From Dryocola sp. LX212 (GTDB lineage: Bacteria > Pseudomonadota > Gammaproteobacteria > Enterobacterales > Enterobacteriaceae): DNA of 64,000 bases. The position numbers were made by a program, and so were the translations under genes. Below are positions 2,304 through 18,840 of this stretch, in pieces (the first letter of the stretch is position 1; every line of letters begins with the position of its first letter). The notes beneath the pieces were generated by a model, which was not told where the DNA came from, did not search any database, and worked only from the letters and a program-made list of their open reading frames with translations. The DNA lies in assembly GCA_041504365.1 (NCBI GenBank), contig CP167917.1, positions 4,216,001 through 4,280,000 on the forward strand, in the 5' to 3' direction.

Positions 2304-2333
2304 TAAGGCTTGCTGCGGCAAGCCTTACGTTTT
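2304..2333 (+). terminator. Rho-independent terminator after yjdN
   Basis: A perfect 10-bp stem TAAGGCTTGC/GCAAGCCTTA with a 4-nt loop, followed by CGTTTT. It lies 22 bp after the yjdN stop and could also serve the convergent LysR gene. Confidence 0.85.
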
Positions 2334-2442
2334 AGATTGATAAACCAACGTGGCTTCGACAACCGCCCGAACATTCCCTGCCGAATTCCACCGCCCCTTT
2401 TCTTATAAGAGGATTTTATTCCCAACGATCTTCATTTACCGC

Positions 2443-3366
2443 TTACATATTGGCAGCTATGCATATTTTTTTCTTAATGAGGGGTAAAGCAAAATCCAGG
2501 AAGGTTCGCACGCTGGAAGACATATTCTTGCGGCTCGGCATCAGGGCATAGGCCCACGAAGACTCTGGCAGCCATCCCGTCTGGAAAGGAAGGGGTTCAA
2601 TCAGCGATCTGTTATTCAGGTCGGTGTTACACAGGTAACGAGGTACCACAGCAGCGCCAATGCCAGAATGTACTAATGCAAGCAATGTCTGCATATTACC
2701 ACTGACAACATGAGGCGAAAAAGTGAAATTAAACACCGCTTCATTAGGACCGCAGAAAATAACTTGCTGTTCTCCACTACGGTTGGCTAATGCCAGCATG
2801 GGGATTTCCGTTAGTTGAGCCGGATTAAATAGGTCTTTAGTCATACTTAATTGTGGATGAGAAACCAGAGCCAACGGTAAACGGCAAATATGACGACAAA
2901 TTAAGGATGAATCATCGGGGAGCTGCGCGGAAATACGAAATGACAGATCTAACCGATCATTAATCAAATCAGAAAACTGATCTTTTACGCAGAGTTCAAA
3001 TTTTATTTCACCGAATCTGGTATTAAAATCGGTAATTATTTCTGGCAATACATGTGTTGCAAATGTAGGTGAACAACCGATACGTAAAATACCCGCCGGG
3101 ACAGATGCGTAGCTTTCAGCAACTAAGAAGGCTTCAGACGCGGCCTTCTCTACCGTAACTCCTTGATTATAAATCATCTCCCCTACGGTGATCAGAGAAA
3201 TATGTCGCGAATTACGTTGTAAAAGACGAACGCCCATTCGCTGTTCAAGCTCCCCTATACGGCGGCTTAGCTTCGATCGCTGCATCCCTAAGTGACGAGC
3301 TGCTTCTGAAAAACCCCCTCGTTTTACTACCTCAACTAATAGTATCAAATCATCTAATCTTTTCAT
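2443..3366 (-). CDS. LysR-family transcriptional regulator
   Basis: The product has 307 residues. An N-terminal winged helix-turn-helix (residues about 1-60, with GGFSEAARHLGMQRSKLSRRIGELE) is followed by a LysR substrate-binding domain (about 90-295). It is divergent from the alpha-hydroxy-acid oxidase gene, with 131 bp between the two starts. That is the classic layout of a LysR protein controlling its neighbour, so the oxidase gene is the likely target (inference). The ligand cannot be told from sequence. The gene is AT-rich compared with the phn genes, which fits the accessory character of the block. Confidence 0.9.
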   Translation of the reverse strand: MKRLDDLILLVEVVKRGGFSEAARHLGMQRSKLSRRIGELEQRMGVRLLQRNSRHISLITVGEMIYNQGVTVEKAASEAFLVAESYASVPAGILRIGCSPTFATHVLPEIITDFNTRFGEIKFELCVKDQFSDLINDRLDLSFRISAQLPDDSSLICRHICRLPLALVSHPQLSMTKDLFNPAQLTEIPMLALANRSGEQQVIFCGPNEAVFNFTFSPHVVSGNMQTLLALVHSGIGAAVVPRYLCNTDLNNRSLIEPLPFQTGWLPESSWAYALMPSRKNMSSSVRTFLDFALPLIKKKICIAANM

Positions 3367-3497
3367 TATCTCATCTTTTATCGTAGTGTTTTTCAGGACA
3401 ATACGTCCTATTTTTACTCATATCTCTCATGAAACATCATTGATATATTCAGTGCCAGGCAAGCATAAAAATATTTTAATATTATGGAGCAATATCA

Positions 3498-4700
3498 ATG
3501 AATTATACAAGACGCAATTTAATTCAATTTGCAGGAGCTGGTCTCACACTTGCTGTAGTTAAACCGTCCGCCGAAGCGGGAATGAAACCTCCGGTAGCCA
3601 CAGGAAATATAAAAGCTGTAAATAAAGATGCGGATGATTCAAAAATTATAAGCTTAGACCGTCTGGAGCAGCAGGCCAAAGAAGTGATGTCACCCGGAGC
3701 CTATGCCTTTATTTCGGGGGCATCTGGCGCTGAATGGACTTTGCATGAAAATCGTCGTGCATTTAACGATTATCCCATTTTGACTCATCGTTTAGCGGAT
3801 ATTCTGGAAGAGGATATTGATCTATCAACTGAGCTTCTCGGCCATCAAATTCCTTATCCTGTTATTTGTGCCCCCGCCGGTGTGCATACTTTTGTTCACC
3901 CAGAAGGGGAACTTGTCAGCGCAAAAGGTGTTAGTGATGCTGGCACTATTTTTCAGTGCTCTGGCGCGTCAGCTAAACCACTTGAAGCCATTGCTGAAGC
4001 CAGTACAGGTCCAAAATGGTTTCAGCTATACTTTAATGCCGACCTCGGCGTGACAAAAGATCTCTTACTTCGGGCTAAACATTCTGGGTATAACGCAATT
4101 ATCTTAACAACAGATGCGCTGGGGCCCGGTAGCAGCGAGGGATTCAGCAGTCTTGGACGCCCTTTTCCGTCTGGGTTTACATTCGGAAATCATGATCCCC
4201 GCTTTGGCGGCCGAGGGGATTTTAGAAACCAAAAAGCTAACCTAACACCTAAAGATATTGAATTTGTCGCTTCCGTTAGCGGTCTCCCGGTGATTGTAAA
4301 AGGTATTATGCGCGGAAAAGATGCGGATAATGCAATTAGCGCGGGCGCAGCAGCTATCCAGGTTTCTAATCATGGCGGACGCCAGTTGGATGGATTACCT
4401 GCGGCAATATCAGTCCTGCCCGAGGTGGCCAACCATGTAAAAAAGCGCGTACCCATTATCTTTGACAGCGGCATACGCCGCGGCATTGATGTTTTCAGAG
4501 CCCTGTGCCTGGGTGCTGATGCAGTCGCAATTGGCAGACCGATGTTATATGGCCTGAGTGTCGGCGGTGCAAAAGGCGTACAAAACGTTTTTGAACATCT
4601 TAGAGATGAATTAAGAATTGCAATGTTATTAGCCGGATGTGCATCGACAAAAAATCTTTCTTCTGATTTTCTAATGAATACGATGAAAAATAATACTTAA
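3498..4700 (+). CDS. FMN-dependent alpha-hydroxy-acid oxidase/dehydrogenase with Tat-type leader
   Basis: The product has 400 residues. It begins MNYTRRNLIQFAGAG, a twin-arginine-like leader, so export of the folded flavoprotein is predicted. The TIM-barrel flavin domain covers about residues 50-385. Family residues seen are K268 (VKGIM), the SNHGGRQLDG block with the catalytic His292 and substrate-binding Arg295, DSGIRRGID at 323-331 and IGRPMLYG. Relatives oxidise L-lactate, glycolate or mandelate; the substrate here is not known. It is preceded by AGGAGC-like AT-rich sequence, is divergent from a LysR gene and is followed by a terminator. An exported member is unusual, since most bacterial relatives are cytoplasmic or peripheral inner-membrane proteins. 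Confidence 0.88.
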   Translation: MNYTRRNLIQFAGAGLTLAVVKPSAEAGMKPPVATGNIKAVNKDADDSKIISLDRLEQQAKEVMSPGAYAFISGASGAEWTLHENRRAFNDYPILTHRLADILEEDIDLSTELLGHQIPYPVICAPAGVHTFVHPEGELVSAKGVSDAGTIFQCSGASAKPLEAIAEASTGPKWFQLYFNADLGVTKDLLLRAKHSGYNAIILTTDALGPGSSEGFSSLGRPFPSGFTFGNHDPRFGGRGDFRNQKANLTPKDIEFVASVSGLPVIVKGIMRGKDADNAISAGAAAIQVSNHGGRQLDGLPAAISVLPEVANHVKKRVPIIFDSGIRRGIDVFRALCLGADAVAIGRPMLYGLSVGGAKGVQNVFEHLRDELRIAMLLAGCASTKNLSSDFLMNTMKNNT

Positions 4701-4831
4701 TCTTAGTCTGCATTATATAGTTAGTTATTAGTAACCTTGTGGTCGGTTTATTAATCGCAGTTATATTTAAAATGATAAAATAATGTAAAGCAGCGCTCTT
4801 AATTCCACAGGAGATCGGTGGCTGTTTACAT

Positions 4832-4858
4832 GATGCCCGGCTATGCCGGGCATCTTTT
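4832..4858 (+). terminator. Rho-independent terminator
   Basis: Perfect 10-bp stem GATGCCCGGC/GCCGGGCATC with a TAT loop and a TTTT tail, 131 bp after the oxidase gene. It separates that gene from the convergent hydrolase gene. Confidence 0.85.
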
Positions 4859-4881
4859 ATAGGCTTAATCCCTCTCGACGA

Positions 4882-5838
4882 TTACCACTCTCCGCGGCGA
4901 TGGTTGGTCACCCAACGATACATGCCAAGAACATTAAGCGTTTTCATCGTACTGAAACCAATCCAGCTTTGTACTTCAGGGCTGAATTTGACGTTGCGAT
5001 AGAGCTGATCCCAGGATTGCCCTTCGCGGACAAGGTTCAGCACCTGCTGATGGAGGTCAACCAGATAGGCACGTTCAGCAATAATGTCGTCTTTGGTGGC
5101 TGGTGTATAATGACCCACATCGATGACATCAACATCCTGATTAATTACCCAATCAAGGGTTTCCACCCAGCCGTCATAATAAAAGTCGAGAAAATCGTTA
5201 TAGGGCATGGACTTGCTTTCACAGACGTCCGTGCACTGAAGCGCTTTATAGCCCGGAAAATGGACCATCACCATACTGTTAGAGTGGCTTGCTGCGACCC
5301 GATAAAGATCAACCGTTTCTCCTCCCAGTAAGATCGTCATTTTATCCTTGAAGACTTTATCCGGAAGCGCGGTTGGAATTTTCTCACCGATAATGGGTTC
5401 TACCGCCCGTTCGTGGGCTACCACGATTGCCCCCGCCTTTTGAAAGATTTGTCCCCCGCTAATATGATCGGCGTGGGCATGGGTGTAAACGACATACTTC
5501 ACCGGTACCTTGAAGCGTTTCATGATTTCGTCTTTAAGCCAATCAGAGGTGCAGGACATTGCCGGGTCGATTACCAGAGCACCTTCTTTGGTAATTAACA
5601 CCAGACCGCTGTGAACAGCAAGGCCTGCTCCCGTTGTATGACGGTAAAGATTACCTTTAATCTGCGTCAGATCGCGCGGGCTTTCAGGACAGTCTGCAAC
5701 GGTAAAATCATTTAACACCGCTCTGTTTACATACGCCGAGTGGTCGAGCGTAGTACCATTATCCGTTGCGGCTAACGTGACCGATGACGATATGGCAGTC
5801 ATTATTAACGCTGCGGCTAAACCTAATTTTAATTTCAT
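4882..5838 (-). CDS. Secreted metallo-beta-lactamase-fold hydrolase
   Basis: The product has 318 residues. A Sec signal peptide (MKLKLGLAAALIMTAISSSVTLAA) precedes the MBL domain. The metal-binding motif HAHADH is at residues 120-125; further likely ligands are His185 (AASHSNS), Asp204 (CTDVC) and His243 (VGHY). This set implies a two-metal site. The substrate is unknown, and I would not call it an antibiotic resistance gene from sequence alone. It is convergent with the exported oxidase, so the two may act on related compounds in the periplasm (inference). The 279 bp upstream are AT-rich and must hold its promoter; no further gene is visible there. Confidence 0.88.
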   Translation of the reverse strand: MKLKLGLAAALIMTAISSSVTLAATDNGTTLDHSAYVNRAVLNDFTVADCPESPRDLTQIKGNLYRHTTGAGLAVHSGLVLITKEGALVIDPAMSCTSDWLKDEIMKRFKVPVKYVVYTHAHADHISGGQIFQKAGAIVVAHERAVEPIIGEKIPTALPDKVFKDKMTILLGGETVDLYRVAASHSNSMVMVHFPGYKALQCTDVCESKSMPYNDFLDFYYDGWVETLDWVINQDVDVIDVGHYTPATKDDIIAERAYLVDLHQQVLNLVREGQSWDQLYRNVKFSPEVQSWIGFSTMKTLNVLGMYRWVTNHRRGEW

Positions 5839-6117
5839 TATATACTTCTTTTCATTGTAAATGTTCTCTTTTCAGGCGTATAAATATCCAAAAGAGGCCT
5901 TAATTAAATCTGCAAAATAAATATCACTGATTTGATAGATATAAACAGGCAATAAACCAGACTACATGTAAATCACTCTCTCAATATGTCTTGCGGGTAT
6001 ACTTTTGGTATAGCCATGCGTTCTTTTTCCCAAAAAAGTTATACCTCTTTCTCTTATCTATAAATTTCTGCTTAATTTTATTCCGCTATAGACATTTCAA
6101 ATATAGCCCTGTTTTAT

Positions 6118-7002
6118 TTATGGGTACGATACAAACAGGACACCCGATCCTTCAAACGAACCCGTGGATCTCGGCGTACCGCTCAGGATAGAGGTGATGC
6201 TGACAGTATTTCGCCCGGGATTGCCCGATAGCGCGGAGTTAAGTGGGAGATTATTTGCCAGCAAATTGGCCGTCATGCCATTAGACAACGCTATACCCTG
6301 CGGGGAACGCAGGCGCAGCGTGTATTTCATTCCCGTCGTGCATTCAACAGCAACTACGCCACGCACTCTGGCCCCTTCAGCGTTTGCGATATTCATTTTA
6401 TCGTAGTCCAGAGTCAATTGCGGAGTAATTAGCGCACACCACTCATTGACGGGAGGCGTACCGATACAACTGTCAATTGCCGAGGTCACTCCACCGTTCC
6501 AGGTACGCATCTGCCAGATGTCAAAATAAGTTTGTGGAGCGGCTTCGAATCCAAGTGTGGTTCCTACACATTCGTTTCCGTTCTTTGAGCCAAAATGCGT
6601 CACTTTACGAGTGCCTCGACCAAACCGGGTTGTGATTAATTGTGCGAAATCCTTGAATGTCATTTTCGCGCTTTCTGCCATCAAAGGAACTGCGGTGACT
6701 AATGGACGTGAGTCATTGGGAGACGGGTTATTGTGACGATGGTAAGAGTAGAAAGACACTTTACTGCCGTAAGCGCCTAATTTCTGTGAGACAACACTTT
6801 GAAGCGTTGTATGATCTTCAATACTTGGATCTGTGACATTGGCTATAAAGATATGCTGGGTGTAAGTAGCCGAGGTTGGGCCCGTTACTTCTACGTCCAC
6901 CTGTGCTGTATAGGGCCACTGGTATGTAAGACCAAATGAAAATGGTGTCCATAACAAGCTGCTTAAACATAAATAATTTATATTTTGAATCATTTTTCTC
7001 AT
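6118..7002 (-). CDS. Two-domain fimbrial tip adhesin, MrpH-like (distal copy)
   Basis: The product has 294 residues from the ATG at 7002 (an upstream TTG at 7008 is also possible). After the signal peptide comes a lectin-like N-domain starting LTYQWPY, then a pilin-like C-domain ending GSGVLFVSYP. His88 and His90 (YHRHNN) and His136 (VTHFG) have the HxH...H spacing of the zinc site described for the Proteus MrpH adhesin. Cysteines include a conserved NGxEC and the DSC...WC pair. It is the last gene of the fimbrial cluster and a clear paralogue of the gene upstream. The metal-site assignment is inferred from spacing. Confidence 0.82.
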   Translation of the reverse strand: MRKMIQNINYLCLSSLLWTPFSFGLTYQWPYTAQVDVEVTGPTSATYTQHIFIANVTDPSIEDHTTLQSVVSQKLGAYGSKVSFYSYHRHNNPSPNDSRPLVTAVPLMAESAKMTFKDFAQLITTRFGRGTRKVTHFGSKNGNECVGTTLGFEAAPQTYFDIWQMRTWNGGVTSAIDSCIGTPPVNEWCALITPQLTLDYDKMNIANAEGARVRGVVAVECTTGMKYTLRLRSPQGIALSNGMTANLLANNLPLNSALSGNPGRNTVSITSILSGTPRSTGSFEGSGVLFVSYP

Positions 7003-7051
7003 TCTCAATTAAGCCTTCGCGACCAATTTGATTGTTACTACTCTCATTTTT

Positions 7052-7933
7052 TTACGGGTACGATACAAACAGGACACCCGATCCTTCAAACGGCCCCGTG
7101 GATCTCGGCGTACCGCTCAGGACAGAAGTAATTTCGACGTTGTTTCGCCCGGTCTTCCCCGATAGCGCGGAATTAAGCGGAAGATTGTTCGCCAGTAGAT
7201 TAGCCGTCATGCCGTTGGACAGTGGAATGCCCTGCGGATTACGCACGCGAAGCGTATATTTCATTCCCGTCGTGCATTCCACGGCAACCTGCCCGCTTAC
7301 GCGAGCACCGGGGGCGTTTGCCAGGTTCATTTTCTCGTAGTTAAGCGTCAGTTGGGGTGTGATTAGCGCACACCACTGATTGGGAGGTGGGGTACCGTAG
7401 CAGCTATCGGCCACGCTGGTCGCCCCACCGTTCCAGGTCTGGGTTATCCAAGATTCATAAAAGGTTGGTTCCGTGGTAGGTGAAGGGCCCAATGTGATTC
7501 CCACACATTCGCCACCGTTTGGCGATCCTTGATGTATCGATAACCACACACCTTTTCCAAATCTGCCGGTTATGTATGCCGCATAACTGGCAAATGTATC
7601 GGTGCCGCGAAATCCTTTTGTTAAAGTGTTATAGGAGAGTAATGCTGGTAAATGTGTTCGTGGGTTATTGTGGCGATGGAACATCATGAATTCCACCTGA
7701 TCAATATTCTTGCCCATTTTTTTATTAAGGACTTCGTTGACTGTTGCATCACTATTAATCTCTGGATCATCAACGGTAATCGTGCCTGTAGCTATACTGA
7801 AGTGGGCGGTGGTGCTATCCATGATTCTTACATTAAGTGTCTGAATATATGGCCACTGGTAAACAAGCGCAGCGACAGGATTACTGATCGCCAGAGTAAG
7901 AGTTAAGAATAAAGGTGCCGTGATTTTTTTCAT
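7052..7933 (-). CDS. Two-domain fimbrial tip adhesin, MrpH-like (proximal copy)
   Basis: The product has 293 residues with signal peptide MKKITAPLFLTLTLAISNPV. The N-domain starts LVYQWPY and carries His86, His88 (FHRHNN) and His134 (SIHQG), the same 46-residue spacing as the neighbouring copy. The C-terminal pilin-like domain is almost the same as in the distal copy (CALITPQLTL, VECTTGMKYTLR, GMTANLLANNLPLNSALSG), while the N-domains differ widely. The pair looks like a tandem duplication whose receptor-binding halves have diverged. Confidence 0.82.
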   Translation of the reverse strand: MKKITAPLFLTLTLAISNPVAALVYQWPYIQTLNVRIMDSTTAHFSIATGTITVDDPEINSDATVNEVLNKKMGKNIDQVEFMMFHRHNNPRTHLPALLSYNTLTKGFRGTDTFASYAAYITGRFGKGVWLSIHQGSPNGGECVGITLGPSPTTEPTFYESWITQTWNGGATSVADSCYGTPPPNQWCALITPQLTLNYEKMNLANAPGARVSGQVAVECTTGMKYTLRVRNPQGIPLSNGMTANLLANNLPLNSALSGKTGRNNVEITSVLSGTPRSTGPFEGSGVLFVSYP

Positions 7934-7966
7934 TATCCAGAAGTCCTTCCTTGCTTATCAGCGCAG

Positions 7967-8467
7967 TTACTGATATTCCGCCCGCACGGTGGCCTGCGCC
8001 GTAAAGCTGCCTTCCACAAGCACCGCCTCATCACGCTGGACCAGCACCGCCTCAATTTCCGGCAGCGTATTGCCGTTTACCTTCAGCGGCGTGTCCAGTT
8101 CAAACGGCTCCCCCCCGACGTACAGCTTCACCCCAAGGTCGGCCTGCTCTGCGCTGACCACCGTCGCCTTGTCAACATCAAACCCCGCCGCGTTCCCCCG
8201 CACCGTCAGCACCAGCTGCCACGCCAGGCTGCTTTCTTGACACTTCAGCGTCAGCGGCACCTGCTCGCGGTAAATCCCGCTCGGCACCTTGCGGATACCC
8301 ACCTGGTCACCGAACTCCACCTTCACCGTCCCGCTCTCATCCAGCGTGCACGGCGGCGGCGTATTCAGGGTGCCCTTAAACTCCAGGTTCTGCGGGTCCT
8401 CTGCCTGAACCGTACCCGCCGCCAGCAGCAGGGCCACACAGCACATCCGGTATGTCATTACGTTCAT
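7967..8467 (-). CDS. Minor fimbrial subunit (MrpG-like position)
   Basis: The product has 166 residues with signal peptide and the pilin fold: GTLNTPPPCTLDESG near the N-terminus, a second cysteine in LTLKCQES for the conserved disulfide, and the C-terminal beta-strand ending ATVRAEYQ. It lies directly upstream of the adhesin genes, where tip-fibrillum adaptor subunits are coded in mrp-type operons. The adaptor role is inferred from order and length. Confidence 0.85.
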   Translation of the reverse strand: MNVMTYRMCCVALLLAAGTVQAEDPQNLEFKGTLNTPPPCTLDESGTVKVEFGDQVGIRKVPSGIYREQVPLTLKCQESSLAWQLVLTVRGNAAGFDVDKATVVSAEQADLGVKLYVGGEPFELDTPLKVNGNTLPEIEAVLVQRDEAVLVEGSFTAQATVRAEYQ

Positions 8468-8476
8468 TTCTGTCCC

Positions 8477-8971
8477 CTACTGATAATCCACCACCAGGGA
8501 AGCCAGCACGCTGAACGCTCCCCCCGCCGGCTCCGCACCGCTCAGCCGGACCGGCACGACATACAGCTCCGGCACGTCCGGAGCCGTAAAGGCTATCCAT
8601 TTCCCCGGCGTGTAGCGCGCTTCTCCCTGATACAGCGCCAGCCCCAGCCCGCCAAGCGGCGTGCTTAACACCTCTCCGCCCGGGGTACCGACGCTCGCGC
8701 CGCTGATGCGGATCTTTTGCTCCAGGGCAATGGCCTCTGAGCAGTCGAGGGTAAACGCAATTTTTTGCCGGTACTTCGTGCCATCGATGCGGGTGGTCAT
8801 CATGTCGTCGCCGAAATCAACGATGACGTTGTCGCCCCCGTTCACCACGCACGGCGGAGAGGCAAGCAGCGTGCCGTGAAAAGTAATATCCGTATCAGCA
8901 CAGGCCTGATGGCTGATGCCCCAGGCCAGCGCAAACGCTGCTGGCAGGGTAAAACTCAGGATGGTCTTCAT
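8477..8971 (-). CDS. Minor fimbrial subunit (MrpF-like position)
   Basis: The product has 164 residues with signal peptide (ending SHQACA), GTLLASPPCVVNGGDNVIVDFGDD, the paired cysteine in FTLDCSEA and C-terminal strand ASLVVDYQ. It is 9 bp from the next subunit gene and shares the VDFGxxV...Y+ pattern with its two neighbours, so the three minor subunits probably arose by duplication. Confidence 0.85.
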   Translation of the reverse strand: MKTILSFTLPAAFALAWGISHQACADTDITFHGTLLASPPCVVNGGDNVIVDFGDDMMTTRIDGTKYRQKIAFTLDCSEAIALEQKIRISGASVGTPGGEVLSTPLGGLGLALYQGEARYTPGKWIAFTAPDVPELYVVPVRLSGAEPAGGAFSVLASLVVDYQ

Positions 8972-8990
8972 GATGCTCCTTACAAACCGC

Positions 8991-9554
8991 CTACTGATAG
9001 GTAATCACCAGCGTGCCGCTGCCGTTAAACGCCCCCGGTTTTAAGGTTGCGATATTCTCGGCAACCGGCACCGCGTACAGCGCAGGCCCGCTGCCCGGGC
9101 CGTTCCAGGTAAAATTCACGTATCTGGCTACGCCATCTCCTGCCGGAATGACCGTATTGTCGTTATAAATCCGGATCCCCAGCCCGGCTTTGTCGGTGCC
9201 GAGCAGCCCGCTGCCGAAGGCTGCCGGCCTGCCGGTAATGGCGAGCTTGAGCTTTGTATCCTTCAGGGACGTACAGCTCAGGGCGTAGGCCAGCTGCGTT
9301 TTCTTATAGCTGCTGCCGTCAATTTCGCGGATAAATACCTCTTCACCAAAATCCACGTCAATGCGGTTATTGCCGTTCACGGTACACTCCGGCGCCTCCA
9401 CCAGAACACCCGATACGGTGACCGTGGTGGTGTCGCCTTCGGCCGCCGCCCGCGCGGGCGTCGACTGAAAGGCAGCCAGCAGGGGTAACGCCAGCAGCAG
9501 GCGGAACGCCTGAACGGAAGGGCTCTTCACGGGCTTCTCCTTTATATCCGGCAT
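8991..9554 (-). CDS. Minor fimbrial subunit (MrpE-like position)
   Basis: The product has 187 residues: a cytoplasmic run MPDIKEKPVKSPS, a hydrophobic signal segment ending TPARA, then GVLVEAPECTVNGNNRIDVDFGEE and partner cysteine ALSCTSL, closing GSGTLVITYQ. Its ATG overlaps the stop of the second chaperone gene by one base (TAATG), so translation is probably coupled. Confidence 0.85.
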   Translation of the reverse strand: MPDIKEKPVKSPSVQAFRLLLALPLLAAFQSTPARAAAEGDTTTVTVSGVLVEAPECTVNGNNRIDVDFGEEVFIREIDGSSYKKTQLAYALSCTSLKDTKLKLAITGRPAAFGSGLLGTDKAGLGIRIYNDNTVIPAGDGVARYVNFTWNGPGSGPALYAVPVAENIATLKPGAFNGSGTLVITYQ

Positions 9555-10321
9555 TAAGGGTTTCCCTCCTGCACCGCCACCTTCCCGGCCTGACAGACGT
9601 TGCCGGTACAGCTGAACGGCAGCAGGCGCTGGCTGCCGTAGTCATTGACGAAGACCAGCACCGGCGAAGTGCCGTATTTCGCGGCCGCCACCGGCAGGGA
9701 CAGCGTTCCCTTCGGGGCCACCATCACCGGCTCAAACCCCTCCAGCCCTGCCGCCTTCAGGCTGCTGCGCCCTTCCACAAAGGTGAAGTGATACGGCGTA
9801 GGGTTGTGGACGATAAATCTGCCCCCTTCGCGGCGCAGCGTCAGCGTTTCCGTGCCCGGCACCGTGTCCGCCATCGGGTCAACCTTCAGCGCCTTTGGCC
9901 GGTAGAAAACCTTCAGCCGGGACTGCATGGCCAGCATCAGGACGTTCGGCCTGTCCGACTTCGGCGGGATTTCCCGCAGGTTAAACCAGAAGACGCTCTC
10001 CCGATCCTGCGGCAGGGCAGGCGTACCCGGTACCGCCTGGAGCCTGACCCGCGTTTTCCCTCCCGCCTCTACCCGCTGGACCGGCGGCAGGACCATAAGA
10101 GGCCCCGTCAGTTTCTTTTCCTGCTCGTCATCCAGCCACGCCTGGGCGAGGTAGGGGTCCCGTTCGTTGCGGTTGGTCACGTTGACGCTGATCGACTTAT
10201 CCCCTTCATTAAATATCAGCCGCGAACGGTCCACCGTCAGGGCGGCCTGCGAACTCATCGCTGCCAGTCCGCTCAGGACGGGCAGCAGAATGCTGAATAG
10301 TGCTGTCGTGCGTATGTTCAT
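9554..10321 (-). CDS. Second periplasmic fimbrial chaperone
   Basis: The product has 255 residues from the ATG at 10321. It is a PapD-like two-domain chaperone: ALTVDRSRLIFNEGDKSISV gives the conserved G1/A1 arginine, PQDRESVFWFNLREIPPKS is the family signature, and RLKVFYRPKAL supplies the F1-G1 lysine. The protein carries a FGL/FGS-type G1 strand but I did not settle the subclass. It is the second chaperone gene in the cluster. It probably serves the three minor subunits and the adhesins coded after it (inference). Confidence 0.9.
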   Translation of the reverse strand: MNIRTTALFSILLPVLSGLAAMSSQAALTVDRSRLIFNEGDKSISVNVTNRNERDPYLAQAWLDDEQEKKLTGPLMVLPPVQRVEAGGKTRVRLQAVPGTPALPQDRESVFWFNLREIPPKSDRPNVLMLAMQSRLKVFYRPKALKVDPMADTVPGTETLTLRREGGRFIVHNPTPYHFTFVEGRSSLKAAGLEGFEPVMVAPKGTLSLPVAAAKYGTSPVLVFVNDYGSQRLLPFSCTGNVCQAGKVAVQEGNP

Positions 10322-10406
10322 GCTGCTCACTCTGCAAATTCACTGTTATGGGATCGCCTTCGGGGGGCGCCTGCCGCACGTTATGTCACTTTTCCATGTA
10401 CTGCTT

Positions 10407-10928
10407 TTAGTCATACCGCAGCGCAAAGATCACCACCGAACTGAACTCTCCCTCCCCGACGTGCCGCCCGGCCGTCGACTGCACCCGCGTCTGCCAGGTC
10501 AGCGTGTTGTCTCCTTCCGTCAGCGTCACCGCCTGCTGCTCGCCGTCCGGCGTCACCGCGCGACCTTCGCTGTCCGCAATCGCAAGGGCTATTCCCCTGG
10601 CGCTGCCGCTCACCCTGAACAGCGTCGGCTCAGACGCGTCTTTCTCGCCGCTGAACGTAAACGAAACCTGCGATCCCAGCGAGAGGTCGCACTCCTTCAG
10701 GTGCACATGGAAGGTCTTCGGCACCGTCTGCACCGCGTCAATAAACGTCTTCGACGGGATCGCGCCAAACTCCACCGTCTGCGCTTCCGAGTCGGTTTCC
10801 ACCCGGCACGGGTCGGCGACCAGCGCACCGCTGAATTCAACGTTCGTGTCCGCCATGGCCCAGGCAGCGAAGAGCGCGATACCCGGCAGCAGCACCGCCG
10901 CCTGACGGCGTAAAAACGTGCGTTTCAT
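10407..10928 (-). CDS. Fimbrial subunit Y
   Basis: The product has 173 residues if started at MKRTFLRRQAAV, whose ATG overlaps the stop of the preceding subunit gene by one base. A longer reading exists but lacks support. Signal peptide ends AMA; DTNVEFSGALVADPCRVE and HLKECDLS hold the disulfide cysteines; the C-terminus is GEFSSVVIFALRYD. It resembles the MrpB-like subunit at 15098-15634 more than the small subunits downstream. Confidence 0.82.
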   Translation of the reverse strand: MKRTFLRRQAAVLLPGIALFAAWAMADTNVEFSGALVADPCRVETDSEAQTVEFGAIPSKTFIDAVQTVPKTFHVHLKECDLSLGSQVSFTFSGEKDASEPTLFRVSGSARGIALAIADSEGRAVTPDGEQQAVTLTEGDNTLTWQTRVQSTAGRHVGEGEFSSVVIFALRYD

Positions 10929-11572
10929 TATTCGTACTCCAGGCCAATCTGCACCACCGAGGTCCACTCCCCGGCCCGCAGCGGCGCGGCATTGCGCAAC
11001 AGCTGGGCCTTCAGCGGCAGAACGTTACGCCCCGGGTACAGCGGCAGCGGGCGGGCAGAGACGCCCGGCGACATCAGCTCCCCGTCCGGCGCTTCCAGGC
11101 GCAACGACACCCCCAAAGCGCTGCCGTGCACCTGGAAAAAGCGGCTGTCATGCGGATCGGCCTTACCCGTTACCGTCATGCGCACCGCGTCCTGCCCTGA
11201 AAGCCACAGCCCGCCACGCAGCGTCTGCAGATCGTCCAGGGCATGGTTGCCCCCCGGACAGCCGTCCAGCACCACGTGCACCGTGACCGGCACCGTCATA
11301 TCGCCGGTATGCATCAGTGACGGGAGGGCCGTGCGCCCCAGGCTAATCTCCTGCTCCTGCGACTCCGGCGTCAGCACGCACGGCGCGCTGACCAGGCTGC
11401 CGGAGACGTGAAGCTCACCGTTGAGGCCGTCCACATGCCAGTTATCGGTGCGCGCGCTGACGCTGAGGGAAGCCATCAGCAGCGGCAGGGCGGCGGCCAG
11501 AAAGGCCAGCCACAGCATCACCGTCACGTGCCGCTCGCCCCGCGTTGCCCTGACGTCTTCCTTTTTCATCAT
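10928..11572 (-). CDS. Fimbrial subunit X
   Basis: The product has 214 residues from the ATG at 11572, one base after the chaperone stop; the open frame extends upstream inside the chaperone gene, which is not plausible. The hydrophobic segment MLWLAFLAAALPLLMASLSVSA is a signal peptide preceded by a charged run. Pilin marks are GSLVSAPCVLTPESQEQEISLG, a second cysteine in LDGCPGG and C-terminal GEWTSVVQIGLEYE. It sits with subunit Y between the two chaperone genes, an arrangement not found in the basic mrp layout. Confidence 0.82.
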   Translation of the reverse strand: MMKKEDVRATRGERHVTVMLWLAFLAAALPLLMASLSVSARTDNWHVDGLNGELHVSGSLVSAPCVLTPESQEQEISLGRTALPSLMHTGDMTVPVTVHVVLDGCPGGNHALDDLQTLRGGLWLSGQDAVRMTVTGKADPHDSRFFQVHGSALGVSLRLEAPDGELMSPGVSARPLPLYPGRNVLPLKAQLLRNAAPLRAGEWTSVVQIGLEYE

Positions 11573-11573
11573 T

Positions 11574-12368
11574 TCAGCGGTCCCGTGTGGCGGCAGGATC
11601 CGCCCGACATACCGTCCCCTGACAGACGAACGGCAGTACCGGCTTTCCGCCAAAATCATTGATGGTGATAAGGTGCGGCTGCGCGAACACCTGGCTGCGT
11701 ACCGTTGCGCTGGATTTTGGCGCAATCATCACCGTCTTAAAGTCCTTCGCGACCGACTGCTTCAGCCCGCCGGTGATGCCCAGAACCGTCATGTAATAGG
11801 GCGTGGGGTTCTCTACCCGGAAACCGTCGCTCACCTTATGCAGGATGAGCCTGTCGTCCTGACGGCTGAAGCGCGCGGGCGTGATGGCGGCCGGGCGGTA
11901 AAACAGCTTTATTTTGGTCTGCAGCGCCAGCTGCAGAACGTTGGGACGGTCGCTCTTGGGCGGCACTTCACGCACGCTGAAATAGAACAGGCTCTCCCGA
12001 TCCTGCGGCAGGCTGGCCGCCGACGGCAGGGCCCTGACCCTGACAACGCTCTTCTGCCCCGGCTCCAGCCGCTGCATGGGAGGCGACACCATCAGGTAAT
12101 CCTTCAGGGGGTTGCCCTGGGCATCCTCCAGCCACGCCTGGGCCAGGTAGGGTTTCTGGCTGCTGTCGTTGCTGATGTTCATCACCAGCCCCTTGTCTGC
12201 ACCGGGATAAATTGCCCGGGTGCGATCCAGAGCGATGGCGCTCTGCGCCGCCGGACTCAGCCCGACGCACAGCACGCATGCGGCCAGTCGTAACGCTACG
12301 CCTTTTAACACCGTGTCACGGTGCGTTACGTCCGCACGCCGTTGTCTCATTTTTTCTTGTTGCATCAT
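11574..12368 (-). CDS. First periplasmic fimbrial chaperone
   Basis: The product has 264 residues from the ATG at 12368. A charged N-terminus and a signal segment ending AAQSA lead into AIALDRTRAIYPGADKGLVM, then PQDRESLFYFSVREVPPKS (chaperone signature) and KIKLFYRPAAI (lysine of the carboxylate anchor). It lies 30 bp from the usher gene, as papD-type genes do. It shares the same domain plan with the second chaperone but is only moderately similar, so the two are not a recent copy. Confidence 0.92.
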   Translation of the reverse strand: MMQQEKMRQRRADVTHRDTVLKGVALRLAACVLCVGLSPAAQSAIALDRTRAIYPGADKGLVMNISNDSSQKPYLAQAWLEDAQGNPLKDYLMVSPPMQRLEPGQKSVVRVRALPSAASLPQDRESLFYFSVREVPPKSDRPNVLQLALQTKIKLFYRPAAITPARFSRQDDRLILHKVSDGFRVENPTPYYMTVLGITGGLKQSVAKDFKTVMIAPKSSATVRSQVFAQPHLITINDFGGKPVLPFVCQGTVCRADPAATRDR

Positions 12369-12398
12369 GGTCAAAGTCCACTCTCTTTCGCGTTATGT

Positions 12399-14918
12399 TT
12401 ATTCACTCGCCCTGTCGGCCTGCGCGGTCACCCTGCGGCACGGCAGCAGAAGCTGACCGGCGGTCAGGGTATCCGGCAGCGTGGTCATGCACTGCACCCT
12501 GCCGTCCCAGTACACGTCCAGGCGCTCGCCGGGGTTGACCCCGGATATCCACGCCAGGCCGGCGTCGCTGAGCATGCCCACTTCACGCGCCTTCGCATTA
12601 CGCACGCTGGCGCCAAAAGGCGGGTGCGTACCGTCCGCCATCGCCAGAATGCCCACGACCTTGCTCCCCTTCAGGACGTCAAAGTGGCGGAAACCGATAG
12701 CCCCCTCCGTGAGGGCGGCTTCGGCCACCGGCGAGCCGCTGACCTCAATGTCTTCCGGGAGTCGGTTGACATCCACGCTGGTTGTTGAACGGTAATAGCT
12801 GGGTACGGACGGCTCCACGGCAATGCCGAACAGGTTGGTGCTGCCGTTTCGCCCGACCGGTACCCCGGACACGCCGTCGGCGCTGACCAGCATCCGGGTC
12901 CCGCCCGGGGTGCCGCCGCCGTGCAGCGCGGCCCCTTTCAGGGTCGCGGTGGCCCCGCCGCTCAGCGACAAGCCGAGGGAGGTGTAGCCTTTTTCCTGCC
13001 AGCCAAAATTGCCCGTCACGTCCGCAAGGTTGCCGCTGTGGCTGTACAGGCCGCTGGCCTGCGTGGTCATGCGTTCACCTTTATCGTTGCGGGTGCCGCC
13101 GCTTAAGCGGTAGTTGTCGCCGTTGTCCAGGCGCTGGTACCAGCCGGCCGTCTGGCTGAAGCTGTCCCTGCTCCAGTTACCGTTGTAGCTGGCGGTACCG
13201 CGGCCCAGCGGCAGGCTCAGGCTCAGCCAGGCCGTATCATCCCGCCGGCCGTTATACTCGCTGCGGCTTGCCGACAGCGAGAAGGAGGCATTGCGCCAGT
13301 CGCCCAAATCGAAATAACGGCTGATGGACAGGCTGTGCCGGTTTGATTCCGGGCGGTTCCAGTAGGTCTGGTGCGACCAGCTCAGGTAGGCCGACAGCCG
13401 CAGGTCCGTGAAGCTCTTGCTGGCCGTGATCGTGTACAGCTCCTTGCTGTTACCGAGGCTGCCGTCGCGATAGCGGTTGTCCAGATATTCGGACATGGTC
13501 AGATAGTTTCGGTCCGAAAAGCGGTAGCCCGCAAACGTCAGGTCGCTGTTGATTTCGTCGAAACGTTTGGAGTAGCTCACCCGGTACGAACGTCCCTGCA
13601 GCGAACCTTCGCCGGGCAGGCGCGCCACCGACTGGGTGACGTCCGCCGACAGGGCGCCAAACTGATACAGATCCCGTCCGACCCCCAGCGCCATGCTGCT
13701 GTAGTCCTGCGCCAGAATGCCCCCGCCGTACAGCGACCAGCTGTTGCTGATCCCCCAGGACACCTCGCCGGTGCCGAAGACCGGCCCCTCAACGCGGTGG
13801 CCGTAATCGGAAGGTCGCCCGGCCGCCAGGCGATAACGCACCTGTCCCGGGCGGGTCAGATAAGGAATGGTGGCGGTGGTGACTGTGAAGGCCTGTACGC
13901 TGCCGTCCTGCTCCTCCACCCGCACGTCAAGCTCCCCGCTGACCGCGCTGCTCAGCTCCTGAATGCGGAACGGACCGGCCGCCACCGTGGTTTCATGGAT
14001 CACGCGCCCCTGCTGGCTGACCGTCACCTTCGCGTTGGTCCGGGCTATGCCGCTGACTTCCGGCGCATAGCCGCGCAGCTTAGGCGGAAGCTGGCTTTCA
14101 TCACTGACCAGCGACGCGCCGGTAAACCGCCAGGCGTCAAACAGATCCGACTGCAGGTAATCTTCCCCGACCGTCATTTTGGCCATCAGACCCGGCAGCG
14201 CGCGGTAGGCGTAGATCCGGCTCCAGTCAAAATTACGTCTGGAGCCCTGATAACCGGTGGTGTGGCTGTAGCTGCCCTGCCAGTCGCCGCGCAGACGCCA
14301 CGGCCCCAGGTTGGCCCCGGCCGTGCCGCTGGCACTGGCGCTCTGCGAAGACTTACTCTGTTCAGAACGGGTTGCCGTCGCGTTTACGTTGTAATCCAGC
14401 AGCAGTCCGGGAATGCCCTCTTCCCAGCGGGACGGCGGCAGCCAGGTCGCATCCTGGTATTCCAGCCAGGCCTGGGGAACAGAGACAGCCAGCGTGGAGT
14501 CCGGCAGGTTGCCCTGCAGCAGCACCCCGTCGAGGGCTGAAAAGTCCGCGCAGCGTCCGTCCTCGCTGAATAACACCCGGGCCAGCGCGTCCGGACGCAG
14601 CCCCAGCATCGCCACCTGGTCACGGGTCAGACAGGCGCGGCTGAGGGGGCTTCCTCCTTCATTCGCCGGCGGCGTTTCTATGAAGTGGATTTCCTGCTCA
14701 GAAATCTTCTGCCCGTTAAGCTTGATTCCCAGAATATAGGTGCCGGGCATAATGTAGCCGGCCTGTGAAAAACGGGACAAATCAATATTATTTCGATCTT
14801 CCGCACTGAGAATATCGGTATTAAACTCTACGGCAAATGCGCGAAGGGAATAGCCCTGCAGGAGTACGGAAATACAGACTCCAAGCACGGTGCGCTTAAA
14901 TAACAGTGATTTATCCAT
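12399..14918 (-). CDS. Fimbrial outer-membrane usher
   Basis: The product has 839 residues from MDKSLLFKRT. Order of parts: signal peptide; usher N-domain (FNTDILSAEDRNNIDLSRFSQAG); 24-stranded barrel with plug; C-terminal domains with the family block SYYRSTTSVDVNRLPEDIEV and the terminal cysteine pair in VQCMTTLPDTLTAGQLLLPC. It forms the outer-membrane assembly and secretion channel for the pilus. High GC gives long spurious antisense frames across this gene. The next upstream gene is a pilin, 179 bp away. Confidence 0.95.
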   Translation of the reverse strand: MDKSLLFKRTVLGVCISVLLQGYSLRAFAVEFNTDILSAEDRNNIDLSRFSQAGYIMPGTYILGIKLNGQKISEQEIHFIETPPANEGGSPLSRACLTRDQVAMLGLRPDALARVLFSEDGRCADFSALDGVLLQGNLPDSTLAVSVPQAWLEYQDATWLPPSRWEEGIPGLLLDYNVNATATRSEQSKSSQSASASGTAGANLGPWRLRGDWQGSYSHTTGYQGSRRNFDWSRIYAYRALPGLMAKMTVGEDYLQSDLFDAWRFTGASLVSDESQLPPKLRGYAPEVSGIARTNAKVTVSQQGRVIHETTVAAGPFRIQELSSAVSGELDVRVEEQDGSVQAFTVTTATIPYLTRPGQVRYRLAAGRPSDYGHRVEGPVFGTGEVSWGISNSWSLYGGGILAQDYSSMALGVGRDLYQFGALSADVTQSVARLPGEGSLQGRSYRVSYSKRFDEINSDLTFAGYRFSDRNYLTMSEYLDNRYRDGSLGNSKELYTITASKSFTDLRLSAYLSWSHQTYWNRPESNRHSLSISRYFDLGDWRNASFSLSASRSEYNGRRDDTAWLSLSLPLGRGTASYNGNWSRDSFSQTAGWYQRLDNGDNYRLSGGTRNDKGERMTTQASGLYSHSGNLADVTGNFGWQEKGYTSLGLSLSGGATATLKGAALHGGGTPGGTRMLVSADGVSGVPVGRNGSTNLFGIAVEPSVPSYYRSTTSVDVNRLPEDIEVSGSPVAEAALTEGAIGFRHFDVLKGSKVVGILAMADGTHPPFGASVRNAKAREVGMLSDAGLAWISGVNPGERLDVYWDGRVQCMTTLPDTLTAGQLLLPCRRVTAQADRASE

Positions 14919-15097
14919 TTTATATATCGTCGCATCCAGCATTCACGTCTGAAACCAGTGTCGGGTGGAGCTAACCACGCTAAATAACACCAGTAATAAA
15001 AAACAGGGTTACGGCTTATGATCCACAGCGCTAATTAAGGCAGACGACCCGGAGAGTCACTTAAAGAGAAATAAATATTACAGAGTATCTATTTCTT

Positions 15098-15634
15098 TTA
15101 TTCATAGGCCACCATAAAACGCAGCGCCGCGGACCATCCCCCTTCCTTTAAAGGCTGACCGTTGCGCACCAGCCGCAGGTGGTAATTGAGTTGGTTATCC
15201 CCTTCCCTGAGGCTGATGGCATTCAGGGCATTTCCGGACACAGCACGCTGGCCGCTGGCATCCGTTAGCTGTAACGCCAGCCCTTCCGCTTCGCCCTCCA
15301 GCGCAAATAACGCATCATTCGTTTCATCCTGCTTTCCGTCGAAGGTAACAACCACGCCCTGCCAGCGCGAACCGTTTTGCTTCTCCAGCTCACAGTTCAC
15401 CAGACGCAGCGAGAAGTCTTTTTCCGGCGCGGACGCGTCAGAATACATATCCCGCGTCGCCTGTGGCGCAAACACAATCTCCTGCCAGACATCGTCGGTA
15501 TGCAGACTGCATGCCGACTCCTGCACCTGACCGTTCATCTGTACCCGCCCGTGTCCCCTGTCACTCCACTGGCCCAAAGCGCCGGCGCTGAAGCCAAGCA
15601 GGAGTACCGCAGGGTAAATACAGCGTAACCGCAT
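15098..15634 (-). CDS. Fimbrial subunit B (MrpB-like, possible terminator/anchor subunit)
   Basis: The product has 178 residues with signal peptide ending ALG, GQVQESACSLHTDDVWQEIVF, cysteine in LVNCELE and C-terminus GGWSAALRFMVAYE. It comes directly after the major subunit gene and before the usher, where PapH/MrpB-type anchoring subunits are found. The anchor role is inferred from position only. Confidence 0.82.
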   Translation of the reverse strand: MRLRCIYPAVLLLGFSAGALGQWSDRGHGRVQMNGQVQESACSLHTDDVWQEIVFAPQATRDMYSDASAPEKDFSLRLVNCELEKQNGSRWQGVVVTFDGKQDETNDALFALEGEAEGLALQLTDASGQRAVSGNALNAISLREGDNQLNYHLRLVRNGQPLKEGGWSAALRFMVAYE

Positions 15635-15652
15635 CGCATCTCTCCGTCCTGA

Positions 15653-15674
15653 ACCCCGGGCTGACGCCCGGGGT
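15653..15674 (-). other. GC-rich hairpin after the major pilin gene
   Basis: Perfect 9-bp stem ACCCCGGGC/GCCCGGGGT with a 4-nt loop, 23 bp after the major subunit stop. No U-run follows, so it is more likely an mRNA 3'-stabilising or attenuating structure than a full terminator. Confidence 0.6.
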
Positions 15675-15696
15675 GGTCTTCAGGTCTGTCCCGTAA

Positions 15697-16275
15697 TTAT
15701 TCGTAGGCCAGGGTGAAGTCAGCGATAGACTGGAAGTCACCGGTCTGAATGGTTTGACCCAGACCCTGCAGGTACGCGGAGAAACCGAGGGTGTTATCAC
15801 CTTCAATCAGTTCACGGGCTGCAGAAGTGCCGCCTACCGGGATCTTGTTGCTTGCGCCATCAGTGATAACCACACCTGCGCCGGAGGCGGTACCAGTGAT
15901 ACCAAACCAGGTGTTATCGTCAGCCACGGCCGGAGAACCACCGAAGGTAACTTTTACGGAAGGTGCGGTAGTAACCGGAGTTTCCGCGCCCGGATTTTCT
16001 GGATCGGTTACAGTCGTTTCGGTGAGGCTGCAGTTTTTCAGCAGGATCTGGAAGCTCTGAGGCGTAGAAGTGCCGTTATTTTCCAGCTGAGATTTAGCAA
16101 CCTGACCCAGGTTTACTTCCTGATCGGAAGACTCAGGGTCAATAGAGCATGGCGCATCAATAATAGAACCGGTAAAGGTAACCTTGCCGCTGCCTGCGTC
16201 AGCTGCTGCCTGAGCACCCGCAGCAGACATACCCATAGCAATAACAAATACAGAGGCCAGTTTATTCAGTTTCAT
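15697..16275 (-). CDS. Major fimbrial subunit (type 1/MrpA-like pilin)
   Basis: The product has 192 residues with signal peptide MKLNKLASVFVIAMGMSAAGAQA. Typical pilin features follow: GKVTFTGSIIDAPCSIDPESSDQEVNLGQV, partner cysteine in LLKNCSLTE, and C-terminal GDFQSIADFTLAYE with the penultimate tyrosine. It is the first structural gene and has the least GC-biased, most expression-adapted codons of the cluster, as expected for the shaft protein. An AAGGAAAA Shine-Dalgarno sequence precedes the ATG. Confidence 0.93.
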   Translation of the reverse strand: MKLNKLASVFVIAMGMSAAGAQAAADAGSGKVTFTGSIIDAPCSIDPESSDQEVNLGQVAKSQLENNGTSTPQSFQILLKNCSLTETTVTDPENPGAETPVTTAPSVKVTFGGSPAVADDNTWFGITGTASGAGVVITDGASNKIPVGGTSAARELIEGDNTLGFSAYLQGLGQTIQTGDFQSIADFTLAYE

Positions 16276-16361
16276 TAAATTTTCCTTAATTCAAATAATA
16301 TAAAATTCCATGTAAATACATGGCGTACGGCATTGCAAATTCGCTGACACTTGCAGCGGCT

Positions 16362-16973
16362 TCACATCTTTTCATTACAAAGCGTTGCTGGTGCAGCTTG
16401 CTTGTAATAAATCATCAAAAACTTATAGAACTCTATTTTGTTATCACAGCCAATCTTGCGCATAATATTTCTGATGTAGGCGCTTACCGACTTTACATTT
16501 ATACCCAGGTTAAGCCCAATAAATTTGGATGGATAACCTTTAGCTATGTAATAACAGACACGCTTTTCTTTCCTGGTTAAGGATTGGATTTGCATTTGTT
16601 TACCGTTAATGAGCTGTAAACTTCTGGTATACAAACCATGCAGCTTTTTATCTGCTATCACTTCAATGAAGTCATGCTTACATGAAGCCAGGTCCATGAA
16701 AATCACATTATCTTTTTTAACTATCGATAAACCAATAGCGCCTAACATGTCATTATCAGCAATGATGACGGCATGACTGCTGCTGCCTCTCTCATTAATT
16801 TCTTTTGAGATATAGTGTACGCTACTGATGGAGTAATCTGCGCTCTCACAAGTGAAGTTCAGCGCATCACTTTTATTCGTACGCTCAAGCAAAGAACGAA
16901 ATCCATTCACAAAAAAAATATTATCTGTCACGATATAGATGTATACATCATTCTTTGTAGTTGCCATCGCCAT
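16362..16973 (-). CDS. LuxR-type helix-turn-helix regulator upstream of the fimbrial genes
   Basis: The start is uncertain: ATGs at 16967, 16973 and 16994 and a longer frame to 17108 are all open; 16973 has GAGTGGG just upstream. The C-terminal part shows SLTRKEKRVCYYIAKGYPSKFIGLNLGINVKSVSAYIRNIMRKIG, a LuxR/GerE DNA-binding helix-turn-helix. The N-terminal part is a degenerate receiver-like fold (VYIYIVTDNIFFVNGFRSLL) with no clear phospho-acceptor. It is very AT-rich and reads in the same direction as the pilin gene 86 bp downstream, so it may be the first gene of that unit and control it (inference). Confidence 0.8.
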   Translation of the reverse strand: MAMATTKNDVYIYIVTDNIFFVNGFRSLLERTNKSDALNFTCESADYSISSVHYISKEINERGSSSHAVIIADNDMLGAIGLSIVKKDNVIFMDLASCKHDFIEVIADKKLHGLYTRSLQLINGKQMQIQSLTRKEKRVCYYIAKGYPSKFIGLNLGINVKSVSAYIRNIMRKIGCDNKIEFYKFLMIYYKQAAPATLCNEKM

Positions 16974-17403
16974 TGACCCACTCAAAATATCCATATTCGG
17001 TGTTACATAGTAGAGATACGCAATCTGCATATAACAAGAATAAAACCTCACTCGTTTCTGGTTGCTAATTATCCATGACAAAGCTAAAACCCAAAAATCA
17101 AATCCCATTAATTAACAAAATAACAAACAAAATGTAACTTTCTTAAATTTCGAATATGGGCATTTAACAAAAAAATAACCAACATGAACTCTTAAATAGC
17201 CCACGATACAATATTAACTCATTGATAAATATGAAATTTAAAACCATCAGCCACCCAGCCCAAATTCAGAATGTAAACATAATGTCAAAAATAAATAGCT
17301 TGTTTTTTGACCACTGCGAATATTCTTAGATGGAACGTGACGGCTTTTAAAGTTATATTAAGCACGGAATTAATGCGCTTTGAGAAATAGCAGGAGGGAG
17401 AAA
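16974..17403. promoter_or_regulatory. AT-rich divergent control region of the two regulators
   Basis: About 430 bp of very AT-rich DNA between two divergent regulator genes. Such composition is typical of H-NS-silenced promoters of acquired genes. I see no convincing invertible element and no perfect operator. Confidence 0.4.
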
Positions 17404-18222
17404 ATGAATTCTGAAGATGAAGTTTTGTATCTTATTGAAGGGATTGTAGAATTTAAGCCGCATGATAATTGCCTGATTTCTTTGACGACAGGGGAAAAGA
17501 AAACGCTACTGGCAGCTGCGTCAAGCTGCCTACATTTATTGTTACAGCATCAAGGAACGCTGGTCACAAAGAAGGCGCTATTCGAAGCAGGCTGGGAAAA
17601 GGATGGGTTGCATGTTACAGACAATACTTTTTATCAAAATGTTTTAACATTAAGACGCTCGTTGAGCTCGCTGGGTATTGAAAGGAATATTATTATTACG
17701 GTTACCCGTAAAGGCCTGATGATTCCAAATGATGTCAACGCAAAGAAGCTGACGGAAGAAAATGCTAGCGCCAGTCCAAAGGAGGATGATCCCCCGCAGT
17801 CTCTTGAAAAGAAATCTCTTTTAAAAGAGGGTATTACACGAAAGCCTAATAAGATAGGTAGCGCAGTTCAGACCTGGTTTAAATTTTGTTTTTTCCTTGC
17901 CATTCTTTTTTTAACGATTTCGGGAGTATACTGCGTAATTAACACTACAGATGAAAATAATTTTTTTGCGGACTATAAGCTTTTCGGGAAGACCAATGGC
18001 TGCATAATTTTCATTAATAACAAACATGATAACATTGAAGAATACCAGCTTTTTACAAAAAACAACCCATTGAACTGTGATTCTCAGAATTACATTTATC
18101 TTACGGTTGTACCTTTTCTGCAGCGAGTGTCGGCGATCCGATGTAAGAAGCCATTATTAAATGAGCCTACAACGCAGTGTGTTTCTGATTACTACCTTTC
18201 AAGGGATGAGAAATTAAAATGA
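17404..18222 (+). CDS. ToxR/CadC-type membrane-bound winged-helix regulator (MarT-like)
   Basis: The product has 272 residues from the ATG at 17404, which has a strong GGAGGGAG upstream; eight more codons are open before it. An OmpR/PhoB-type winged helix fills residues about 10-105 (FEAGWEKDGLHVTDNTFYQNVLTLRRSL). A lysine-rich linker follows, then one membrane segment (WFKFCFFLAILFLTISGVYC) and a periplasmic tail with several cysteines. This is the ToxR plan. Together with the small membrane protein overlapping its end it resembles the Salmonella marT-fidL pair. Control of the neighbouring fimbriae is inferred from position. Confidence 0.85.
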   Translation: MNSEDEVLYLIEGIVEFKPHDNCLISLTTGEKKTLLAAASSCLHLLLQHQGTLVTKKALFEAGWEKDGLHVTDNTFYQNVLTLRRSLSSLGIERNIIITVTRKGLMIPNDVNAKKLTEENASASPKEDDPPQSLEKKSLLKEGITRKPNKIGSAVQTWFKFCFFLAILFLTISGVYCVINTTDENNFFADYKLFGKTNGCIIFINNKHDNIEEYQLFTKNNPLNCDSQNYIYLTVVPFLQRVSAIRCKKPLLNEPTTQCVSDYYLSRDEKLK

Positions 18223-18689
18223 AAAAAGCCCTTACTTACATGAATATCATTCTGGTTTTACTGGCATTACTCATTATTATTTTAGTAATAGGTTATAATA
18301 GTTATCATCGTGATTATTATACTTGTGAATCCGATCTCATTATACATGCGCAGGATGCCAGAATTGAAGCCTCAGTGACCTATTATTTCCAGGGCAAAAA
18401 AGGGGTTTCCTTGCTCAAAGGCGCGATTATCAAAGGAGAGAAAGTAACCACGATTAGCAGGAAAAACCACTTTCGAATCAATAAGAATGATAAAGGCTAT
18501 CTGCATCTGGTGACAACCCAAACCCTTACGGCTCCTTCAGACGAAGCCGCGGTCCAGGATCTACAACGCTACCTGCCTGATTTTTATTTCACAAAAAACG
18601 CAAGCAGAGATTTCGTCATCCATAAACAAGGAGACGGGCTGGTGTTTTCCACGGGCTATATGCCGGCTTTTTACTGCGTAAAAGAGTAA
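18219..18689 (+). CDS. FidL-like inner-membrane protein
   Basis: The product has 156 residues. Its ATG overlaps the stop of the regulator gene (ATGA), so translation is probably coupled. One N-terminal membrane anchor (MNIILVLLALLIIILVIGY) leads to a periplasmic domain with two cysteines (YYTCES and AFYCVKE). Proteins of this form partner ToxR-like regulators, as ToxS and FidL do; a role in sensing or stabilising the regulator is inferred. Confidence 0.72.
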   Translation: MKKALTYMNIILVLLALLIIILVIGYNSYHRDYYTCESDLIIHAQDARIEASVTYYFQGKKGVSLLKGAIIKGEKVTTISRKNHFRINKNDKGYLHLVTTQTLTAPSDEAAVQDLQRYLPDFYFTKNASRDFVIHKQGDGLVFSTGYMPAFYCVKE

Positions 18690-18755
18690 CAGGCATGTCT
18701 GACCTTATATCAGCACATTCGGAAAAACCTGCCGAAACTGCACCTGCGCACTGAC

Positions 18756-18785: not shown

Positions 18786-18840
18786 TAAAAGCTTAGATGC
18801 ATATTTATGTCCCATAACCTCTCCTCAGATCAATCAAACA

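Follow-up and report, generated by a model that had tools for sequence, protein, structure and literature searches.

Tandem MrpH-like adhesin genes with diverged binding halves and a probably converted 3′ end in an Stf/Ste-like pilus operon

Two described systems are close to the locus reported here. MrpH, the adhesin of the Proteus mirabilis MR/P pilus, is marked by three metal-binding histidines (His72, His74 and His117), a strictly conserved Cys128–Cys152 pair with a proline linker after it, and a second disulfide (PMC7444556). The Salmonella ste fimbriae carry two adhesin genes in tandem, and some strains have a single gene that resembles a recombinant of the two (PMC3373541).

Here, positions are those of the window, the whole stretch of 64,000 nucleotides that was analysed. 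An earlier note on this DNA had described two neighbouring genes for two-domain adhesins. This was borne out by two uninterrupted open reading frames on the minus strand, called A and B below.

6118 to 7002, minus strand: adhesin A, 294 aa; intact open reading frame, distal last gene of the operon, 55% identical to B
6118 to 6441, minus strand: C-terminal pilin domain of A; model residues 185–294 match the PapG pilin domain 2wmp
6442 to 6930, minus strand: N-terminal binding domain of A, with His88, His90, His136 and Cys145/Cys179; from alignment columns
7052 to 7933, minus strand: adhesin B, 293 aa; intact open reading frame, directly upstream of A in transcription order
7052 to 7375, minus strand: C-terminal pilin domain of B; 86% identical to that of A, with a Foldseek match to the PapG pilin domain
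7376 to 7867, minus strand: N-terminal binding domain of B, with His86, His88, His134 and Cys143/Cys178; from alignment

The better choice of start for A is the ATG at 7002 (or a TTG at 7008). About 50 bp lie between B and A, and a purine-rich ribosome-binding sequence stands ahead of both genes. In the structural models, both proteins combine an N-terminal binding domain with a C-terminal pilin domain that ends in a chaperone-recognition strand; the modelled pilin domain of A superposes on PapG 2wmp with a Z score of 11.2 and 2.8 Å over 109 residues. Neither model has a donor strand at the N terminus, and the mature proteins begin with the binding domain. Because this strand is lacking, A and B should each occupy the tip of a pilus.

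The C-domains, described earlier as nearly identical, share 86% of their protein and 80% of their DNA sequence, the latter over a direct repeat (6113–6412 and 7047–7346). This is well above what unrelated adhesins share: the next best C-domain, from Pantoea allii, is 52% identical, and the others range from 21 to 46%. The N halves do differ, as the earlier note had it; at 37% identity over the whole half and 39% over the mature part, they are diverged homologues, not unrelated domains. Within the repeat, the 37-bp block at 6122–6158 and 7056–7092 is exactly identical between the genes. It forms the sole such pair in the 4.70-Mb assembly with up to 3 mismatches permitted, and a reversed-pattern control returned none. 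A wider repeated element was ruled out for this block, which has just these two copies in the assembly. Pilus chaperones hold a C-terminal strand with a penultimate tyrosine and a glycine at −14; the block codes for the C-terminal strand FEGSGVLFVSYP, and both proteins have the penultimate Tyr and the Gly at −14.

To which class do the binding halves belong? The histidine triad is retained in both (His88/90/136 in A, His86/88/134 in B), as is a cysteine pair followed by the proline linker GTPP (Cys145/179 in A, Cys143/178 in B), and triad, pair and linker recur in relatives from Pantoea allii, Hafnia alvei, Enterobacter sp. Cy-643 and others. Since both proteins keep these marks of Proteus MrpH, they are probably zinc-type adhesins, for which zinc-dependent binding would be expected. 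The second disulfide of MrpH, Cys60–Cys66, has no counterpart: no cysteine lies ahead of the HRH motif in mature A or B, and a Hafnia relative has a pair there. Arg118 of MrpH, the residue after the third histidine, is not conserved, being Phe in A and Gln in B. Pfam MrpH_N gave no match to A or B at E values up to 1, and their MrpH_C scores, 18.3 for A and 23.4 for B, fall below the cut-off of 27 bits. Profile–profile comparison with hhalign, against an alignment of MrpH-type proteins of which two are Pfam-confirmed, one of these matching the MrpH crystal structure at 3.5e-37, returned a probability of 98.9 and an E value of 2.3e-17 over 261 columns spanning both domains. A profile of the five nearest sequences did not find the MrpH structure; a wider profile, which itself includes MrpH-type members, reached it at 7e-22. 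Foldseek and VIA-align runs with full-length models returned mainly pilin domains, which filled the matches. Because the hhalign match covers both domains, yet the Pfam thresholds are not reached and the second disulfide is lacking, we call A and B MrpH-like, as a probable distant branch, and do not file them as MrpH. They suggest that MrpH-like adhesins, probably of zinc type, include a branch that escapes the current Pfam models. The same genome (G000) also has a clear MrpH_C match, at C4:3676–3987 of an 8.4-kb contig.

The pair stands at the end of a pilus operon, which lies in an insertion.

7967 to 8467, minus strand: minor pilin (StfF-like), neighbour of B; Pfam Fimbrial, NCBIfam StfF below cut-off
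8477 to 8971, minus strand: minor pilin (SteE/StfF-like); Pfam, NCBIfam
8991 to 9554, minus strand: minor pilin (StfE-like); Pfam, NCBIfam
9554 to 10330, minus strand: second periplasmic chaperone (StfD-like); PapD_N and PapD_C
10407 to 10967, minus strand: minor pilin; Pfam Fimbrial
10928 to 11725, minus strand: minor pilin; Pfam Fimbrial at residues 106–264, first possible start given, true start probably further downstream
11574 to 12374, minus strand: first periplasmic chaperone; homologous to the same-place chaperones of related operons
12399 to 14942, minus strand: outer-membrane usher (StfC/SteB-like); Pfam Usher 526 bits, NCBIfam NF011812 932 bits against a cut-off of 972
15098 to 15634, minus strand: minor pilin; same-place homologues in related operons
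15697 to 16275, minus strand: probable major pilin; Pfam Fimbrial, first gene of the operon
2328 to 18960, no strand: insertion carrying the operon, 16.6 kb; absent from the closest congener examined, G002

The operon thus reads major pilin, minor pilin, usher, chaperone, two minor pilins, second chaperone, three minor pilins, B, A. Its best NCBIfam matches are PRK15284 and a SteB-type usher with StfD and SteC chaperones, all under their cut-offs; usher and chaperones are nearest to Stf/Ste, and the operon is thus a relative of Stf rather than Stf itself. A scan for promoters and terminators found no more than in shuffled sequence, so that co-transcription is suggested by gene order and spacing. 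No invertible promoter was evident, the inverted repeats ahead of the major pilin gene being apparently fortuitous. Across the operon (6118–16275), G+C falls sharply at the end, from 58–68% in the usher, chaperones and minor pilins to 47–49% in the adhesin genes. A second pilus operon of related type is present in the same genome (L073, G000:C2:5137–12037, on a 52.8-kb contig).

In the sister genome G002, window positions 2327 and 18961 are separated by 66 bp, and A and B were found in none of the five congeners examined. The insertion lies between yjdN(phnB)-like and phnC-side genes and carries a LysR regulator, an lldD-like gene, a metallo-hydrolase, the pilus operon, and LuxR- and CadC-like regulators; its ends show no tRNA and no shared 9-mers.

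Relatives were sought more widely. The plasmid and E. coli collections gave no DNA match, and a tblastn search of the plasmids yielded a distant C-domain in Lelliottia and nothing else. A scan of genome contigs with B alone as query found nothing; with an alignment as query it found Pantoea allii, Hafnia alvei and Enterobacter sp. Cy-643. Related operons located through their ushers mostly end in one adhesin, whose N half is often unalignable, and two more paired adhesin arrangements were seen in another genus. In genome G022, two orphan MrpH-like adhesin genes lie 1.3 kb apart (pair L020, 7395–8246 and 9548–10399 of G022:C1:988000–1006000), with no usher recognised in that interval. Their N halves are ~80% alike with 6% silent four-fold differences, and dN/dS is 1.43 in the mature N half and 0.26 in C; the former is not significant alone as a sign of positive selection (Fisher p = 0.36). 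Another operon of this genome has two 345-aa adhesin-like genes flanking a small pilin gene (L029, 6068–7105 and 7698–8735), and in a related operon the sole adhesin is frameshifted near its 3′ end, the rest of the C terminus lying in another frame (L019, 9217–10137). In genome G318, a pilin-adjacent adhesin-like gene stops early in the C-domain, with a complete second adhesin 2 kb on (L021, 4963–5670 and 2013–2861).

How did the A/B pair arise? The earlier proposal of duplication with a diversified binding half is supported: dN between A and B is 0.73 in the N half versus 0.10 in C, and the two are sisters in both trees (99/97 in the C tree; 92/93, not starred, in the N tree). The L020 pair offers an independent, younger comparison from another genus. 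Its silent divergence is equal in both halves, with dN of 0.127 in N and 0.020 in C. There is thus ~6-fold more amino-acid change in N at equal silent divergence, so that the trend of A and B recurs here with no conversion, and plain divergence after duplication is a sufficient account.

Alternatively, one N-domain could have been imported by recombination onto a shared C-domain, with no divergence after duplication. The N-domain of A is as near to that of Pantoea allii (39.9% identity) as to that of B (39.3%), while the C-domains stand at 52% and 86%, and in both genes G+C is lower in the N halves (0.44–0.46) than in the C halves (0.51–0.57), as a domain swap might leave it. The N tree nonetheless pairs A with B, a tree joining A to Pantoea being 5.9 log units worse (p-AU 0.056), and the N-to-C dN ratio of the pair, ~7, is near the ~6 of the clean young pair. 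We consider import unlikely and retain duplication followed by divergence of the binding half.

Silent sites separate two causes of the likeness between the pilin halves. Between A and B, 22 of 35 four-fold sites differ in the N half; when C is cut into thirds, the counts from its start to its end are 11 of 16, 7 of 19 and 4 of 23. Silent sites are hence close to saturation in the adhesin half and the first third of the pilin half, and dS in C is ~0.8. The drop along C is significant by permutation (p = 0.002), with the best split ~24 codons from the end (p = 0.008, for a split point chosen from the same data and few silent sites). A recent conversion of the entire C-domain was rejected because silent sites in its first third are saturated.

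6121 to 6192, minus strand: last 24 codons of A, apparent silently homogenised tract; contains block 6122–6158
7055 to 7126, minus strand: last 24 codons of B, apparent silently homogenised tract; contains block 7056–7092

Within these tracts, 2 of 16 four-fold sites differ, versus 24 of 42 in the control (p = 0.003), for which the final 24 codons of four pilins were set against their orthologues from another genus. Against the Pantoea homologue, the same 24 codons differ at 11 of 12 four-fold sites in A and 10 of 12 in B. Because silent sites are far more diverged over the rest of C, its protein identity appears to be mainly the product of an old duplication plus purifying selection; the last ~24 codons (~70 bp), alone silently alike, look recently converted, which points to a short gene-conversion event. 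The earlier suggestion that conversion keeps the 3′ ends similar is thus supported for about the last 24 codons only. Taking silent divergence as a measure of age, A and B would have existed as a pair before they arrived in this genome.

An explanation without conversion would have purifying selection and codon preference on the chaperone-contacting C-terminal strand produce the likeness. The block does code for that conserved strand, with its penultimate Tyr and Gly at −14, and the longest identical run is not significant alone as a test for conversion (p = 0.08). Selection of this kind, however, leaves similarly constrained orthologous pilins, and A and B against Pantoea, silently different at most or many of the sites just counted, and would have to produce the gradient along C as well; we regard it as rather improbable and keep a short recent conversion as the preferred account. 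That either gene is a redundant copy, silent or in decay, and plays no part at the tip is very unlikely: loss does happen, as the frameshifted single-copy adhesin of another genus illustrates, but both reading frames are intact, dN in C is low against dS, and the His triad, cysteines, C-terminal chaperone motif and ribosome-binding sequence are retained in A and B.

Taken together, we give a probability of about three in four to the whole of the following reading. A and B, the distal genes of an Stf/Ste-like operon, would stem from an old tandem duplication of a single MrpH-like two-domain tip adhesin. Each N-domain may bind a metal, probably zinc, and may contact a ligand of its own through the diverged residues that surround this metal, while the C-domain would be constrained by its fit to chaperone, usher and adaptor pilin, with the last ~70 bp homogenised recently by gene conversion. 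Both proteins would pass through one assembly machinery to a common usher. Two tip adhesins in series within a single pilus are unlikely, given that both proteins lack a donor strand at the N terminus; A and B would cap different pili, and are likely alternative tips, mixed on one cell. A is probably less expressed than B because it is distal in the operon. A more specific picture is tentative and perhaps doubtful, namely that two metal-dependent tips, mixed among the pili of each cell, use the same zinc site to recognise distinct ligands, specificity being set by residues beside the metal (Phe in A, Gln in B, Arg118 in MrpH).

The earlier note had further proposed that recombination at the shared block could change binding specificity, and this we do not support. 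With B transcribed ahead of A and the block at the 3′ end of each gene, a crossover would delete A and spare the binding half of B; conversion inside the C-domain stops short of the N halves, where DNA identity is 47%. The shared block is a route to copy loss or homogenisation, not to new specificities.

Compared with known systems, the Pantoea allii locus (L074) is alike in being a related operon with two adhesin genes at its end, the first with the same HRH motif; unlike A and B, its two adhesins share 13% aligned identity in N and 38% in C, with ~1 kb between them. PapG of P pili has the same fold of the C-terminal pilin domain and the same role as chaperone-bound tip subunit; its N-domain is different and is not known to carry the metal triad. 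MrpH of Proteus mirabilis MR/P (PMC7444556; PDB 6y4e, 6y4f) is likewise a two-domain tip adhesin that ends its operon, with an HxH motif plus third histidine and a cysteine pair before the proline linker; A and B are ~20% identical to MrpH-type members and lack Cys60–Cys66, and MrpH is single-copy in MR/P. The Salmonella ste locus shares the Stf/Ste-type operon with tandem adhesins, the likeness to the Ste adhesins being by description (PMC3373541); the present pair comes from a different enterobacterium, has measured silent-site homogenisation at its 3′ end and carries the MrpH-type histidine triad in both N-domains. The tandem arrangement is already known from ste. A and B add a clearer molecular record, in which silent sites allow selection and gene conversion to be told apart, and a clean natural example of how pili gain specificities, the assembly half frozen and the gripping half drifting.
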